A DNA stretch of 64,000 nt from Flavivirga amylovorans (GTDB taxonomy: Bacteria > Bacteroidota > Bacteroidia > Flavobacteriales > Flavobacteriaceae): the NCBI RefSeq assembly GCF_030540875.1, contig NZ_JAUOEM010000001.1:310001-374000 (forward strand), in the 5' to 3' direction. How positions within the stretch are numbered: the stretch's first letter is position 1; the number at the start of each line of letters is the position of its first letter. Made by a program: the position numbers and the translations under genes. This document shows, one piece after another, positions 48,180-55,894 of the stretch. The notes beneath the pieces were generated by a model. That model was given only the letters and a program-made list of their open reading frames with translations. It searched no databases and was not told where the DNA came from.

Positions 48180-51100
48180 TTATTTTTTCATCACTTTAAC
48201 ATTCATTTCTTCAACTTTTTTATCTGATAATACAGAAGGTGCACCAAATAATAAATCTTCACTGGTTCCTGTTTTTGGAAATGCCATGACTTCGCGAATA
48301 GAAGCTTTTTTCTCTAATATCATCATGAGTCTATCAACTCCCCAAGCGATACCGCCGTGTGGGGGCGCACCGTAATGGAATGATTTATACATCGTACCAA
48401 CACTTTTAAGCATGGCTTCTTTATTGTAACCCATATTTTTATAGGTGGCTTCCAGAATTTCAGGTTTGTGAGCACGAACAGAGCCACCTCCAATTTCATA
48501 ACCATTTAAGATGAGGTCGTATTGTTGTGCAATAATACTTCCTATCTCTTCTTCTTTCCCATTCATATGCTTATCTATATCATAGATGGCAGGCATAGAG
48601 AATGGGTTATGAGTAAATGTCCAACGGCCTTCGTCTGTTTTTTCAAACATAGGGAAATCTACGACCCATGCAGGCCTTAATTCCTTCGGGTTTATTAAGC
48701 GTAGCATACTCCCCAATTCTTGACGAACAGCATCTAATGCTTTATTTGCTGTGGCATAGTCTGCGGCAGAGAAAAATACAATATCACCAACTTGAGCATT
48801 GGTAGTTTTAATGATACCCGCCGCAATATCTTCACCCAAAAATTTAATGATTGGAGATTGCAAATCGTTTTCATTAACAATAATATATGCTAAACCTCCT
48901 AAACCATGTTGTTGGGCTATGGCAGTTAACTTTTCTATTTGTCCTTTAGATAAACGTTTTTTGCCTTGTTCTTCAGCAGATATTTTAATACATTTTACAA
49001 TACCACCTTCTTCAATAGGTTTGCTAAATACCTGAAAAGTTGTGTCTTTTACAATATCTGTAATGTCCTGTAGTTGTAAGCCGAAACGCAAATCGGGTCT
49101 GTCACAGCCATATTTATCCATGGCCTCTTTATAGGTAATCACTTCAAACGGATGTAAAATCCATTTTTTACCATATATTTTTTTAACAATATCATTGAAC
49201 ATGTTCGTGTTCAAATCTATAATTTGTTGCATACTGGCATAAGCCATTTCTATATCTAACTGCGTAAATTCTGGTTGACGATCACCACGAGAATCTTCAT
49301 CTCTAAAACAGCGAGCAATCTGGAAATATTTTTCGTAACCACTTACCATTAACATTTGCTTGAATTGTTGAGGTGCTTGCGGTAAGGTATAAAATGCTCC
49401 CGCCTGTTTACGTGTTGGTACTATAAATTCCCTAGCACCTTCATCTGTTCCTGCACTTAAAATAGGCGTTTCAATTTCTAAGAAGTTTTGTTCGTCTAAA
49501 ACATCACGAATTAATTTAATCACCTTATGGCGATTAATAATGACTCTACGAACATCGTCATTTCTATGATCTAAATATTTATATTGAAAACGCGTCGTTT
49601 CATTTGTTTTAGTCGCTCTTTTTATTTCGAAAGGAAGTGTTTTAGAAAGGTTTAAAATTTCTAACTGGTATGCTTCCAACTCTATTTTTCCTGTTCTTAA
49701 TGCGGCATTATAATCGTCTTCTTTACGTTGAACAAGTATTCCTGTAACGGTTATAACCGATTCGGGTTTTAATTTTACTAGCTCATCTAAATTAGGAAAT
49801 GATTCTCTGCTTAAACGTACTTGAAATACTTCGTTACTGGAATCTCGTAAATCGATAAAAATAAGTTCTCCATGGTCACGAACACTCGATACCCATCCAG
49901 AAAAAGTAACTTCTTCAGAAATATTTTCTTCAGATATATCTGAAATTAAATGTGTTCTGTATTCGTCTTTGATAACAATGGGAATTTCTGGTAATGTTTC
50001 TTCCTGTATGTTGGCTGGTTGTTGGTTATTGGTTGTTGGTTGCTCATTGACAGTTTGTGAATTCTGCTTTTCCAACCCAGAACCTTGCAATTGGTCAAGA
50101 ATCTCTTCTCGAATTACTTTTCCTGAGGCACCTTTGCCAATAATGCCTATAACTTTACCAACTAATATCCCTGCTTTTCCTTGATTTCCACTTTTAATAT
50201 CGTTAGCAACAGCTTCGTTTTCAGAAATCACCTTTTTAATAGCCTCATCGATTTGAGATTGAGAGATCGTATTATCCTCAAAATATTTATTGTAATCGAA
50301 ATCTCTGTCTTTTAGATACGATGTAATGGCATTTTGAACTAATACAGATGTTATTTTTTCATCTCTAAACAGTTCGAAAATTTCAATAAGGTGTTCAACC
50401 CTGTGAATATCTGCATAGTCATCTGCCCCAATATTATTTACTAGTGTTTTAGCAACAAAAGAAGGGTCTTTTAGCTTGTTATTTATAGCAATAAAAGTTT
50501 CAGAACGTAATGAATCTGCCGTAAAAAATTTGGCATCTTGCGGTAACACGCCACCTTTTATCAGAATCGATTCCACAGCAAAAGGAAGGGCGCTGGTGTC
50601 CACCTGGATGGAATCTACAACATCTTTAATAGAAACAAAAGGTAAATCTGGTTCTGAAATAAAACGATAGTCTGCTTCAAACTCTTTTTTACGCATTGTT
50701 TTGGTTTGCTTTAATTCGGCATCCCATAAAACAGTAGTTTGATCTGGTCGAAACTCTTTGTGTTCGATATAATAGTTGAATTGTTTTTCAACTTCTTCTT
50801 TTAAAGCCTCTACCATAAACTTAAACGAGTTTAAGTTTTTTATCTCGGTACGCGGATTTAAATTATAATCACGTTTTTTACGAAGTGATACAGAAACATC
50901 CGATTTAAATTCTCCTTTTTCAAGGTTAGCTTCAGATATTTTTAGATTCTGAACAATACGTTGTATGTACTGTGCATAAGTTGAAGCATCTTCAATATGA
51001 CGAATGCACGGTTCGGTTACAATTTCAATAAGAGGCACACCGGCTTTGTTAAAATCGACTAATGATGTCGTTTTCTCATGCATCAGTTTAGCGGCATCTT

Positions 51101-51515
51101 CCTCAATATGTACCTGGGTTAAATTAACGGTAAATTGAGATCCATCATTTCTAAAGCAAGACACTTGCCCATCTGGTATAACGGGATTGTGAAACTGTGT
51201 GATTTGAATATTCTTTGGGTTATCTGGATATTCGTAATGTTTTCTGTCCCAAGAAATCACTTCATTTTCAAAAGATGATTTTACAGCCTTTCCAAAATAA
51301 ATAGCTTTGTTTATAGCCTCTTTATTAATTGCGGGTAAAATACCCATTTGTCCTGTACAGACAGAACATATATTTTCATTTGGTGTTTCTATTTCTTGAT
51401 TTGGGCAAGAACAAAACAACTTGGTTTTGGTATTTAATCGAACGTGTGTTTCCAGTCCGATTACCAATTCTAATTCGTGGGCTTTTAAAGCCGCGTCTAA
51501 TTGTTCCAGTTCCAT
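48180..51515 (-). CDS. gatB/aspS: bifunctional GatB amidotransferase subunit / aspartyl-tRNA synthetase
   Basis: 1111 residues, a fusion. Residues 1-490 are GatB: the kinase-like core with LELVIGLETHVRLNTKTKLF, zinc ligands C35, C37, C50 and C53, and the tRNA-binding YqeY-like tail with GKVIGIIGKGASGKVIREEI. Residues about 495-520 are a low-complexity linker (Q, N, T, P). Residues about 525-1111 are bacterial-type AspRS: anticodon OB-fold VTFSGWVSSVRDHGELIFID, motif 2 CFRDEDSRGDRQPEFTQLDI, a GAD insertion, and motif 3 GGIAWGVDRLMMIL. GatB transfers ammonia onto Asp/Glu-tRNA after phosphorylation; AspRS makes Asp-tRNA. The fusion would hand Asp-tRNA(Asn) directly to the amidase. Such fusions are annotated in some Flavobacteriaceae. 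Start overlaps the gatA stop by one base. Confidence 0.95.
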   Translation of the reverse strand: MELEQLDAALKAHELELVIGLETHVRLNTKTKLFCSCPNQEIETPNENICSVCTGQMGILPAINKEAINKAIYFGKAVKSSFENEVISWDRKHYEYPDNPKNIQITQFHNPVIPDGQVSCFRNDGSQFTVNLTQVHIEEDAAKLMHEKTTSLVDFNKAGVPLIEIVTEPCIRHIEDASTYAQYIQRIVQNLKISEANLEKGEFKSDVSVSLRKKRDYNLNPRTEIKNLNSFKFMVEALKEEVEKQFNYYIEHKEFRPDQTTVLWDAELKQTKTMRKKEFEADYRFISEPDLPFVSIKDVVDSIQVDTSALPFAVESILIKGGVLPQDAKFFTADSLRSETFIAINNKLKDPSFVAKTLVNNIGADDYADIHRVEHLIEIFELFRDEKITSVLVQNAITSYLKDRDFDYNKYFEDNTISQSQIDEAIKKVISENEAVANDIKSGNQGKAGILVGKVIGIIGKGASGKVIREEILDQLQGSGLEKQNSQTVNEQPTTNNQQPANIQEETLPEIPIVIKDEYRTHLISDISEENISEEVTFSGWVSSVRDHGELIFIDLRDSSNEVFQVRLSRESFPNLDELVKLKPESVITVTGILVQRKEDDYNAALRTGKIELEAYQLEILNLSKTLPFEIKRATKTNETTRFQYKYLDHRNDDVRRVIINRHKVIKLIRDVLDEQNFLEIETPILSAGTDEGAREFIVPTRKQAGAFYTLPQAPQQFKQMLMVSGYEKYFQIARCFRDEDSRGDRQPEFTQLDIEMAYASMQQIIDLNTNMFNDIVKKIYGKKWILHPFEVITYKEAMDKYGCDRPDLRFGLQLQDITDIVKDTTFQVFSKPIEEGGIVKCIKISAEEQGKKRLSKGQIEKLTAIAQQHGLGGLAYIIVNENDLQSPIIKFLGEDIAAGIIKTTNAQVGDIVFFSAADYATANKALDAVRQELGSMLRLINPKELRPAWVVDFPMFEKTDEGRWTFTHNPFSMPAIYDIDKHMNGKEEEIGSIIAQQYDLILNGYEIGGGSVRAHKPEILEATYKNMGYNKEAMLKSVGTMYKSFHYGAPPHGGIAWGVDRLMMILEKKASIREVMAFPKTGTSEDLLFGAPSVLSDKKVEEMNVKVMKK

Positions 51516-52915
51516 TATATCGTATCTTTTAAGAAGTTAGCAAACTTCAAAACGAGTTCGTCATTATTTTTTGCTGCCGTAACCTGCAATCCTGTTTCTG
51601 TTCCTTGAGGAACTGTTAAGGTAGGTAATTGCCCTAAGCTAAAACCTACCGTGTAAGCATCAGATAAGTACATGGCCAAAGGATCTTTTAAACTATCTCC
51701 AATTTTAGGAGGTGTACTTGGTGTAACTGGGGATAAGATGATATTTACTTCTTCAAAATCCTTTTCAAAATTTTCGGAAATAGCATCTCTTAAAGCAAGT
51801 CCTTTTAAATAGATCTCATCAGAAAACCCTTGAGATAATACTTGGTTGCCACCAACTATTCTACGTTTGGTTTCTTCTGAGAATTTCTCAGATCGTGTTA
51901 CAGCGTAAGATTCCTTTAGGTCTTTATCATCAATACGATCTCCATAATTGGTACCATCTAAACGAGATAGATTAGAAGCTGTTTCAGCCATAGCTAAAGT
52001 ATAATAAGTAGAAACCAGAATATCAGATTTGAAAAAATCTAATTCTTTTACTTGTATCCCTTTTGCTTTTATTTTTTCAATAGATGCTAAAAAATCATTT
52101 TTAATCTGTGCATCAATCGCTTCGCTTTCAATAAAGTTTTTAAAATAACCAACGGTTTTAATATCGCTTGTATTTAAAATATTTGATTCTTCAATGGTTT
52201 CAGACGTATAAGTTGTTTGATCTTTCGTGTCTTTTCCACTCATGGCATTTAAGACAATGCGAATATCTTCAACAGATTTGGCTAAAGGGCCAACACAATC
52301 TGTTGATGAAGCATAAGCCATTAAACCGTAACGAGAAATACGCCCGTAAGTTGGTTTTAACCCATATATGTTATTGTAACCTGCTGGTTGACGAACAGAA
52401 CCACCTGTATCACCACCAATAGAAAAAACGGTATAATCTTTAGCAACGTTTACAGCAGAACCTCCACTAGAACCTCCACCAACTAATTCTGGATTTACGG
52501 CATTTTTTACAGCCCCAAAAATGGTGTTTTCACTAGATGAACCATGACCAAAACTATCACAGTTTTCTTTTACAATAGGTATGGCACCTGCATCTAATAA
52601 TTTTTGAATGGCTGTGGCTGTATATGCTGATTTATATTTTTTAAGTAAATCTGAACTTGCCGTTGCATAAGTGCCTTGTAGCATGTATACATCTTTAATA
52701 CCAAATGGAATACCTTCCAGCAAACCAATAGTTTCACCGTTTGCGATTTTGGTATCTACTTTGGCAGCTTGTTCTAAAGCTACATCTGTTAATAAAGAAT
52801 TCACGGTGTTGTGCGTATTGTCTTTAAGTAAGTTTAGTTTTTCTTGCACCAAGTCGACACAAGAAATTGTTTTGTCTATCAATTGCTGATGGATATGTTG
52901 TATCTGAGATTTCAT
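51515..52915 (-). CDS. gatA: aspartyl/glutamyl-tRNA amidotransferase subunit A
   Basis: GatA is the glutaminase of GatCAB and releases ammonia for GatB. The 466-residue product is full length and has the amidase-signature Ser-cisSer-Lys triad: Lys74 in GIPFGIKDVYML, the cis-Ser in GGGSSGGSAVNVA (146-158) and nucleophile Ser173 in GGDTGGSVRQPAG. The C-terminal part has SPVTPSTPPKIG and LPTLTVPQG. It is the middle gene of a tight - strand operon, 3 bases after gatC and overlapping gatB by one base. Confidence 0.97.
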   Translation of the reverse strand: MKSQIQHIHQQLIDKTISCVDLVQEKLNLLKDNTHNTVNSLLTDVALEQAAKVDTKIANGETIGLLEGIPFGIKDVYMLQGTYATASSDLLKKYKSAYTATAIQKLLDAGAIPIVKENCDSFGHGSSSENTIFGAVKNAVNPELVGGGSSGGSAVNVAKDYTVFSIGGDTGGSVRQPAGYNNIYGLKPTYGRISRYGLMAYASSTDCVGPLAKSVEDIRIVLNAMSGKDTKDQTTYTSETIEESNILNTSDIKTVGYFKNFIESEAIDAQIKNDFLASIEKIKAKGIQVKELDFFKSDILVSTYYTLAMAETASNLSRLDGTNYGDRIDDKDLKESYAVTRSEKFSEETKRRIVGGNQVLSQGFSDEIYLKGLALRDAISENFEKDFEEVNIILSPVTPSTPPKIGDSLKDPLAMYLSDAYTVGFSLGQLPTLTVPQGTETGLQVTAAKNNDELVLKFANFLKDTI

Positions 52916-52918
52916 AAT

Positions 52919-53188
52919 TTATGCATCTATTACTTTAGAAACTACTAAATAGCCATCTTTCTCTTTCGGGAAATTGTCTTTAATAATTTGCTTTTCTACA
53001 GTAGAACTTTCAATTACAACATCATCTCTCAAATTATCTAAAGACACACAATTATTATGATTATTATTAAAGGGATTATTATTTGTTGTTTGTGCATTCT
53101 TAATAACGTCAAATAATCTGTTTACAGCCTCAGAAGGTTGTGCGCCTTTAATACTCGACAATACGTCGACTGTCATAATTTTACTCAT
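52919..53188 (-). CDS. gatC: divergent GatC (aspartyl/glutamyl-tRNA amidotransferase subunit C)
   Basis: 89 residues, immediately upstream of gatA. The last 38 residues match the GatC tail: NLRDDVVIESSTVEKQIIKD, then NFPKEKDGYLVVSKVID, equivalent to the usual LREDxVxxSLxxxxxLxNAPxxxxGYFxVPKVI. Residues about 18-31 fit the second GatC helix. The normal first helix (IAxLARLxLxxEE) is missing and is replaced by MSKIMTVDVLSSIKGAQP. The middle loop is Asn-rich: TTNNNPFNNNHNNC. GatC in this position is expected to stabilise GatA-GatB. Called from the C-terminal match and gene order; the N-terminal part is unlike any GatC I know. Confidence 0.8.
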   Translation of the reverse strand: MSKIMTVDVLSSIKGAQPSEAVNRLFDVIKNAQTTNNNPFNNNHNNCVSLDNLRDDVVIESSTVEKQIIKDNFPKEKDGYLVVSKVIDA

Positions 53189-53209
53189 GGTTTTATTTAT
53201 TAGATTAAC

Positions 53210-53235
53210 AAAAAAAACCTTCCGAATTCGGAAGG
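53210..53235 (-). terminator. attenuator terminator of the gatCAB/aspS leader
   Basis: On the - strand CCTTCC-GAATTC-GGAAGG (53235 down to 53218) is a perfect palindrome. AAAG before it and TTTT after it can lengthen the stem, and eight T follow (53217-53210). It lies between the leader peptide and the gatC start, 21 bases before the latter, so it must be read through for the operon to be expressed. Its left arm CCTTCC is also complementary to GGAAGGGAAGG upstream (53269-53259). Confidence 0.85.
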
Positions 53236-53258
53236 CTTTATATATTTTTAAACAATAA

Positions 53259-53269
53259 CCTTCCCTTCC
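53259..53269 (-). promoter_or_regulatory. antiterminator strand of the gatCAB/aspS leader
   Basis: GGAAGGGAAGG on the - strand starts within the leader-peptide stop codon and offers two overlapping registers of GGAAGG. Either can pair with CCTTCC of the terminator (53235-53230); the register nearer the terminator extends to GGAAGGTT with AGCCTTCC (8 pairs, one G-U). It is placed where a ribosome resting on the stop codon would cover it. Directly after it, TTATTGTT (53258-53251) is complementary to AACAATAA inside the leader-peptide Asn codons. Confidence 0.75.
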
Positions 53270-53316
53270 TAAAAATTAGGATTATTGAAATTATTATTGT
53301 TATTATTTCTTATCAT
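53269..53316 (-). CDS. asparagine-rich leader peptide of the gatCAB/aspS operon
   Basis: Fifteen codons and a TAG: MIRNNNNNNFNNPNF. Nine of 15 residues are Asn, six in a row (codons 4-9, AAT AAT AAC AAT AAT AAT). A -7 promoter element lies 17 bases upstream, an antiterminator strand overlaps the stop codon and a terminator follows. This is the layout of leader peptides such as those of his and trp operons, here with the codon of the amino acid whose charged tRNA the operon makes. A ribosome starved of Asn-tRNA would stall in the run and leave the antiterminator free. The function is inferred; the sequence elements are seen directly. Confidence 0.82.
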   Translation of the reverse strand: MIRNNNNNNFNNPNF

Positions 53317-53333
53317 AAGACTTGTTCTGTTGC

Positions 53334-53341
53334 CAAATATA
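53334..53341 (-). promoter_or_regulatory. -7 promoter element of the gatCAB/aspS operon
   Basis: On the - strand TATATTTG fits TAnnTTTG exactly and ends 17 bases before the leader-peptide ATG, predicting a 5' end about 10 bases before that codon. No clear -33 TTG at the usual distance. Confidence 0.55.
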
Positions 53342-53866
53342 TATAGAATAAATTTACTAAACATCATTTTTACTCATCTTATATTTTTATTGTCAAATTA
53401 ATAAAAAACTTAAAATTTATTTATTAGTTCTACAATAATTATTCATTTAGGCGTCATTCTTTATAGAATATTTTGTTGTTCAATGATTGAAAATTCTATG
53501 AAATCAATCATTTTAATATTTCTGTTTTTGATCATTATTGAATACTTTTGTCTCCATATTTCTTAATAATATGACCCCAATCTTCTCAATAAATTTTAAT
53601 ACTCCAAAAACCAGTTTAAAAGGCAGTTTTTTTGTTAAATACATTGTGCTTTTTATTTTTTTGGTAAATAGAAGCGCTAACTTTGGTTTAAAATCTCGCT
53701 CCTATTGAACTTTGAGTTTTTATCTAAAATTCAAAAGATAAAAATAAGTTAAAATCTAATTTAAGGTGCTTTTTAAGCGATTTAAGACGTTTTTAAGTAA
53801 TTAACAATTTGTTGATAATTATTGTATAAAGTCTCTAGAATGCTTTTTAAAGGTAGGTTGATTTTG
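53342..53866. other. AT-rich gap between divergent gatC and gyrB promoters
   Basis: About 525 bases, very AT-rich, with no gene I can support. Both flanks hold promoters (gatCAB leader on the - strand, gyrB on the + strand). A 27-codon hydrophobic frame at 53483-53566 is considered in the rejected list. No dense cluster of DnaA-box-like sequences was noticed, so I do not call an origin although gyrB is adjacent. Confidence 0.5.

Positions 53867-53935: not shown

Positions 53936-55894
<1,959 letters not shown>

Follow-up and report, generated by a model that had tools for sequence, protein, structure and literature searches.

A candidate Asn-codon attenuator before a gatC-gatA-gatB/aspS operon of Flavobacteriaceae

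The window analyzed here, a 64,000-nucleotide stretch of a Flavivirga amylovorans contig, carries on its minus strand a gatC-like gene (52919–53188; 89 aa, with an internal Asn run, TTNNNPFNNNHNN), gatA (51515–52915; 466 aa) and a gatB-aspS fusion (48180–51515; 1111 aa). The fusion scores over the cut-offs of both TIGR00133 (gatB) and TIGR00459 (aspS), and GatA passes the Pfam Amidase cut-off and has TIGR00132 (gatA) as its best family by far, at 428 bits (cut-off 481). The first gene had been called gatC in an earlier, sequence-only reading of this DNA, and its position and the C-terminal half of its product fit GatC, but the match is weak and lies under both curated cut-offs (21.3 bits with Pfam GatC, cut-off 23; 24.5 bits with TIGR00135, cut-off 47.1), and a search of the whole genome with Pfam GatC at E 0.001 returned no match. 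By GatA and GatB-AspS the closest relative is Flavivirga aquimarina (GatA 94%; both proteins together 95%), and 32 of 199 sampled genomes of the family have a GatA orthologue with an identity of 75% or more. The upstream neighbor of the operon, gyrB, is divergent (53945–55894).

Between 53341 and 53188 on the minus strand, reading of the sequence places a promoter box, an Asn-rich open reading frame (ORF), a GGAAGG and a hairpin in this order before gatC, each at the position that the sequence-only reading had given it. The box, TATATTTG (53334–53341), follows the pattern TAnnTTTG, which we take to be the Bacteroidota-type -7 promoter box. The leader ORF, MIRNNNNNNFNNPNF (53269–53316; ATG at 53316, TAG at 53271–53269), has 15 codons, nine of them for Asn. 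Within these Asn codons lies segment 1, AACAATAA (53294–53301), whose partner, TTATTGTT, is at 53251–53258, as indicated by the alignment and folds described below, and a small hairpin seen in the alignment, CCTAA-ttt-TTAGG (53268–53280), encloses the stop codon. Segment 2, GGAAGGTT (53257–53264), begins 4 nt past the stop codon and forms the 5′ strand of an 8-bp antiterminator with segment 3, GCCTTCC (53230–53236), which is common to the antiterminator and the terminator. The intrinsic terminator, AAGCCTTCCGAATTCGGAAGG followed by eight T (53210–53238), is apparent in sequence, fold and alignment; its CCTTCC-GAATTC-GGAAGG and eight T end at 53210, 21 nt from the gatC ATG at 53188. The RNA fold that had been proposed as a check places the 142-nt leader well below shuffles, at -30.2 kcal/mol versus -17.9 (sd 3.2; z -3.8), with 1 of 200 shuffles folding as well.

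We compared this region across 110 fetched GatA loci (30 + 80, partly from the same organisms and with the window locus among them; the 80 were kept from 189 matching loci). The layout of ORF and hairpin before gatC is present in 57, a count that includes the window's own leader (L001) and ten repeats and combines 55 loci found by script with two, L106 and L109, recognized by reading through their FNNS and SNNP variants. Leaving out the ten repeats of a core gave 47 distinct leaders, which we aligned. In all 47, the peptide has 14–16 residues with 7–10 Asn and ends in TAG, a TAnnTTTG box ends 10–19 nt before the leader ATG, GGAAGG (or a variant) follows the stop codon at a spacing of 3–5 nt, and GCCTTCC is invariant; a TTCT that begins 7 nt ahead of the ATG is nearly so. 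The GGAAGG copy that starts in the stop codon (GGAAGGGAAGG), to which the sequence-only reading had drawn attention, is real in the window but is no general feature, being found by reading in 4 of the 47 leaders (L001, L098, L101 and L109; a script count of 11 also took in copies further on); the conserved copy is the downstream one, exact in 45 of 47. One further leader of the same type, L241 (G271:C68), lacks a nearby ATG and seems to use a GTG start.

Codon -12 is AAT in 33 and AAC in 9 of the 47 leaders, codon -11 is AAT in 26 and AAC in 18, and codon -10 is AAT in 7 and AAC in 40, so that the 5′ Asn codons vary mostly between AAT and AAC, as expected of a translated Asn run. Exceptions are Arg at codon -8 in five leaders and Thr there in one, with a few Thr, Ile, Phe and Ser at -11 or -12. 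The sequence-only reading had staked its case on relatives sharing the Asn ORF or the stems, and the comparison bears it out: from genus to genus, the leaders keep the Asn run, the place of the stop codon, GGAAGG, CCTTCC and the terminator. The remaining 53 of the 110 operons have no visible leader, one of them (L057), with just 72 nt upstream, being too short to judge. A promoter-like box, CTTTcGTAnnTT, stands before 50 of these 53 and is absent from the stretch searched in L049 and L084. None of the Flavobacterium or Lutibacter operons in the sample has a leader.

The alignment and folds give good support to two mutually exclusive hairpins. Across the 47 leaders, alignment cells are paired in 99.2% of cases for the antiterminator, 96.5% for the terminator, 98% for the helix between segment 1 and its partner (the 1:2 helix, AACAATAA with TTATTGTT) and 94.5% for the small CCTAA:TTAGG hairpin. 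The small hairpin keeps 4 bp, CCTA:TAGG, in every leader, in one by way of a double change from C-G to U-A, and its fifth pair is open in 13. As for the covariation that the sequence-only reading had proposed to look for in the stems, the clearest case is the innermost pair of the terminator (G-C in 19 leaders, A-U in 16, G-U in 1, unpaired in 11), and terminator covariation comes largely from this one pair; the antiterminator, by contrast, shows none because it is nearly invariant. Taken as a whole, the structure exceeds every one of 500 shuffles in paired cells and in covariation score, 496 in two-sided changes and only 431 in further pair types, ranks that are not probabilities because the aligned sequences are related. 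RNAalifold recovers the 1:2 and terminator helices unaided.

We then folded transcripts cut as a ribosome would mask them. When the part covered by a stalled ribosome is omitted and the transcript ends at CCTTCC, the antiterminator forms in 47/47 folds, and with everything up to a stop-bound ribosome omitted, the terminator forms in 47/47; these folds permit one hairpin each and speak to the stability of both, not to which of them wins. The choice that the sequence-only reading had seen for CCTTCC, between the upstream GGAAGG and that of the terminator, is conserved on both sides. The terminator is the stronger (mean -16.6 versus -10.0 kcal/mol), so the antiterminator would win only if formed first. 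In ribosome-free folds, 1:2 is the best fold in 47/47 when the transcript ends before CCTTCC and in 6/47 once CCTTCC is present, when the antiterminator is best in 41/47. The untranslated default, judging by these folds, may therefore be read-through rather than termination. The possible third structure of the sequence-only reading is this 1:2 pairing, a classical one; it is conserved, but energetically marginal once CCTTCC has been made. In many folds, part of the TTATTGTT segment also lengthens the antiterminator.

A covariance model of the leader was run on 397 genomes of the family, with at most nine candidates per genome scored and strict filters. It returned 37 matches of at least 91 bits, the next being at 60 bits, and all 37 lie before gatC; they are made up of 30 fetched loci and those of G389, G213, G308, G219, G271, G051 and G134. 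Put through the script, 28 of 31 (the 30 fetched loci and L208) passed, and the three misses (L145, L125 and L208) have a leader on reading. Among 395 genomes of the order, six model matches all fall in the same family; of these, G676 and G633 are new and likewise have the match before gatC. A draw of 296 genomes of the phylum held GatA of the window kind (at least 85% identity) in three, all of the same family, the other 126 matches being at most 45%. As far as we searched, strong leader matches are found only in this one family.

Twelve lower matches (at most 91 bits) were inspected, comprising one true Asn leader (L153), six apparent chance terminators and five ilv-type leaders before ilvD or ilvE-ilvD (L149, L151, L152, L154 and L156; gene names from reading the translations, except that the ilvD of L152 is over its cut-off). 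L152 lies in the window's own genome (G000:C6:649795–649905) and matches the Asn leader model weakly, at 47.9 bits. Like the gatC leader, it has a leader ORF and a GCCTTCC/GGAAGGC terminator before an amino acid operon, here ilvD; its peptide, MKKQILNIVSIIVIVIISQR, differs in being rich in Ile and Val where the gatC leader has Asn. By analogy, it is an internal parallel for leader-peptide attenuation.

The gene content of the carriers points to what the operon does. The genome of the window has AsnRS over its cut-off, GlnRS and, besides the fusion, a stand-alone AspRS over its cut-off (L115), and in it we found no AsnA, no AsnB over its cut-off and no full-length AsnB, defined as at least 50% identity over at least 495 residues to a query that is asparagine synthase B by NCBIfam. 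Among 80 genomes of the family, full-length AsnB is present in 0 of 32 operon carriers versus 45 of 48 non-carriers (with an identity of at least 73% in 43 of these), and AsnA in 0 of 33 carriers. The three non-carriers without AsnB (G007, G023 and G033) have AsnA, seemingly in place of AsnB or GatCAB, which would make three interchangeable routes to Asn within one family. Proteins over the TIGR01536 cut-off occur in 11 of the 32 carriers, none of them a full-length match to the AsnB query; that of G061 scores 252 against an asparagine synthase B cut-off of 499, and we suspect that these proteins are other amidotransferases. We rejected the idea that carriers lose the leader when they have an additional AsnB-like gene, such genes being present both with and without a leader.

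Two other roles for the operon were set aside. GlnRS is over its cut-off in 32/32 carriers, so Gln-tRNA does not require GatCAB, and AsnRS is over its cut-off in 31 of 32, so the operon is not the only source of Asn-tRNA. Given the presence of AsnRS and a second AspRS and the absence of AsnA and AsnB, the operon is probably the Asn biosynthetic route. The sequence-only reading had foreseen tRNA-dependent Asn synthesis, which remains probable, but it had missed the AsnRS, the normal AspRS and the absence of AsnA and AsnB. The exception among the carriers is G180:C7 (L111, L170; 99% complete), where no AsnRS is over the cut-off and the operon stands behind a plain promoter, without a leader. This fits a route that is essential at all times, although a single case is no proof, and the leader is also missing from many carriers that do have AsnRS. 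The U1-A72 pair of tRNA(Asn), described in part of PMC4206432 as needed for GatCAB, is present in all 27 tRNAs read, in keeping with tRNA-dependent Asn synthesis. Since carriers and non-carriers alike have it, it was rejected as a discriminating mark.

The fused AspRS is of the bacterial type and does not score over the archaeal-type non-discriminating model. It carries RDH in 74/74 loci in which the motif was found (of 80), and also in G180, whereas the stand-alone AspRS carries RDK in 17/17 (of 18). We take His31 and Gly82 of the Pseudomonas aeruginosa AspRS to be marks of relaxed tRNA specificity; by reading of the alignment, the fusion has Asp at the place equivalent to Gly82. The phmmer alignments assign no specificity class by themselves, and our search of the open literature found no paper backing the residue argument. 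We infer that the fused enzyme would be of relaxed specificity and accept tRNA(Asn).

Attenuators of the trp/his type combine a short ORF of cognate codons, a stop codon beside the antiterminator strand and exclusive hairpins, and control amino acid genes. Judged by sequence, the locus has the corresponding parts, namely a cognate codon run, an intrinsic terminator before the first gene and an exclusive antiterminator, and the trp/his logic proposed by the sequence-only reading fits the conserved pairing, Asn run and stop position. The leader is thus very probably a ribosome-mediated transcription attenuator: it would read the level of charged tRNA(Asn) and regulate the Asn biosynthetic operon of the cell. 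It shares with the trp, his, ilv and phe attenuators the short cognate-rich ORF, the stop by the antiterminator strand, the exclusive hairpins and the product-making genes downstream; it differs in the codon sensed, which is Asn, in an amidotransferase and fused AspRS that would make the product on the tRNA, and in its Bacteroidota host.

The analysis shows the elements in the sequence, how well they are conserved, that the two pairings exclude each other, and that AsnRS, GlnRS and a second AspRS are present while AsnA and AsnB are absent; transcription start, stalling, termination and physiological response are what we infer, as follows. Transcription would start just past TATATTTG, with a ribosome trailing the polymerase through the leader ORF. 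With Asn-tRNA(Asn) ample, free Asn being charged by AsnRS, the ribosome would reach the UAG stop and cover the GGAAGG 3–5 nt on; CCTTCC would then pair with its own GGAAGG, and transcription would end at the T run. With Asn-tRNA(Asn) scarce, the ribosome would stall at any of the Asn codons, leaving GGAAGG free to capture CCTTCC first as the antiterminator, and gatC-gatA-gatB/aspS would be transcribed. The fused AspRS would load Asp on tRNA(Asn) and GatCAB would amidate it, so that Asn is made on the tRNA. The Asn run inside the gatC-like gene, kept with or without a leader, is odd in a gene needed when Asn-tRNA is short. A regulatory role for this run was rejected because the protein is as rich in Asn without a leader (mean 12.6 Asn, n = 42) as with one (11.1, n = 38).

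We weighed this attenuator against other accounts of the same sequence. The region is AT-rich, AAT and AAC triplets and hairpins with T runs occur often in DNA of this kind, and 53 of the 110 operons showed no leader, all of which would suit an ordinary terminator of some other transcript beside a chance short ORF whose Asn codons are AT-rich noise. That account is very improbable: no minus-strand ORF of at least 60 aa lies between the leader and 55159 and gyrB is divergent, so no upstream transcript needs the terminator, and ORF length, Asn count, TAG and the 3–5-nt gap are kept in all 47 leaders, each with the promoter box directly upstream. We give as slim a chance to a leader that senses a general slowdown of translation, like antibiotic-induced leaders, and not Asn-tRNA specifically. 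Any stall before the stop codon would free GGAAGG, and RNA pairing also constrains much of the ORF; yet the run is Asn in almost every leader, with AAT and AAC exchanged synonymously at codons -10 to -12; the genes downstream serve to make Asn-tRNA, and this genome's ilvD leader is rich in Ile and Val instead.

The least probable account, slighter still than these two, is an RNA that senses uncharged tRNA(Asn) or free Asn directly, as a T-box or riboswitch, with the ORF incidental. The conserved core consists of the ORF and the pairing segments, and the leader is about 100 nt long, which is short for a T-box. Within 53100–53450, no Rfam family reaches its gathering score, the best being Phe_leader (32.3 against 55), and the ten weaker Rfam matches include no T-box; this led us to dismiss a T-box or another RNA family already known, and we ascribe the Phe_leader score to the common layout of ORF plus terminator or to chance. 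What speaks for direct sensing is a clostridial case: going by the title of Saad et al. 2012, a T-box reportedly controls tRNA-dependent amidation in Clostridium acetobutylicum, which would likewise place the tRNA-dependent amidation that supplies Asn and Asn-tRNA(Asn) under control at the RNA level. The sensor there is a tRNA-binding RNA, where we propose a translating ribosome, and the flavobacterial leader has no T-box match.

The history of the leader was followed on a tree of 74 operons, on which it needs at least six changes, five of them forced by well supported branches, against about 24 for shuffles. All but one of the 33 leader rows belong to a single group of 41, which has a support of 94 (not starred); Snuella has the leader outside this group. 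Apparent losses affect Tamlana, Wocania, one Mariniflexile, some Polaribacter and L035. On the same tree, the operon of L079, whose record is named Lentimicrobium sp. MAG, nests in Flavobacterium, and its contig is therefore probably misbinned. A broader scenario is likely, if held less firmly than the attenuator itself: an Asn-specific attenuator would have evolved in the Flavobacteriaceae to toggle between charging by AsnRS and synthesis by GatCAB and a second AspRS, would have been lost where its signal is meaningless, and would govern an operon that replaces Asn synthetase in about one-sixth of the sampled family. The lineage without AsnRS can serve as an example of an attenuator lost once its signal loses meaning.

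The mechanism class is already known, and the Asn specificity and the tRNA-dependent target pathway appear new. Among the matches listed in our search of the open literature, none describes an Asn leader, nor do the accessible portions of PMC1262725, PMC4833913 and PMC2494555 show one. Leader peptides were then known from Proteobacteria and Actinobacteria, to which Firmicutes were added, according to a portion of PMC2965389. A section of PMC9723704 reports strong clues, in a flavobacterium, of attenuation by leader peptides that lie upstream of amino acid operons, and 5′ elements that are conserved ahead of pheA, hisG and others; that section names neither Asn nor gat. The portion of PMC4206432 on gene content counts 18 of 547 genera, some of them Bacteroidetes, with AsnRS, GlnRS and GatCAB and without Asn synthetase. 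As in the genome of the window, Bdellovibrio, Deinococcus and Thermus have AsnRS, GlnRS and GatCAB, and Bdellovibrio also lacks AsnA and AsnB; unlike here, where the second AspRS is bacterial-type and fused to GatB, a second AspRS is given among those 18 genera only for Deinococcus-Thermus and is of archaeal type.

If the attenuator holds, Asn joins the amino acids with a leader-peptide attenuator, as a counterpart of the clostridial T-box built on a leader peptide. Attenuation would then extend from the synthesis of free amino acids to synthesis on the tRNA, where signal and product are the same molecule, Asn-tRNA(Asn). The leader also supports attenuation as a device of the Bacteroidota, for which we found just brief hints in print, in the section of PMC9723704. 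For the carriers themselves, it would explain the coexistence of two routes to Asn-tRNA and of two AspRSs: AsnRS would serve ready-made Asn, and GatCAB with its AspRS would be the inducible route that replaces AsnB.
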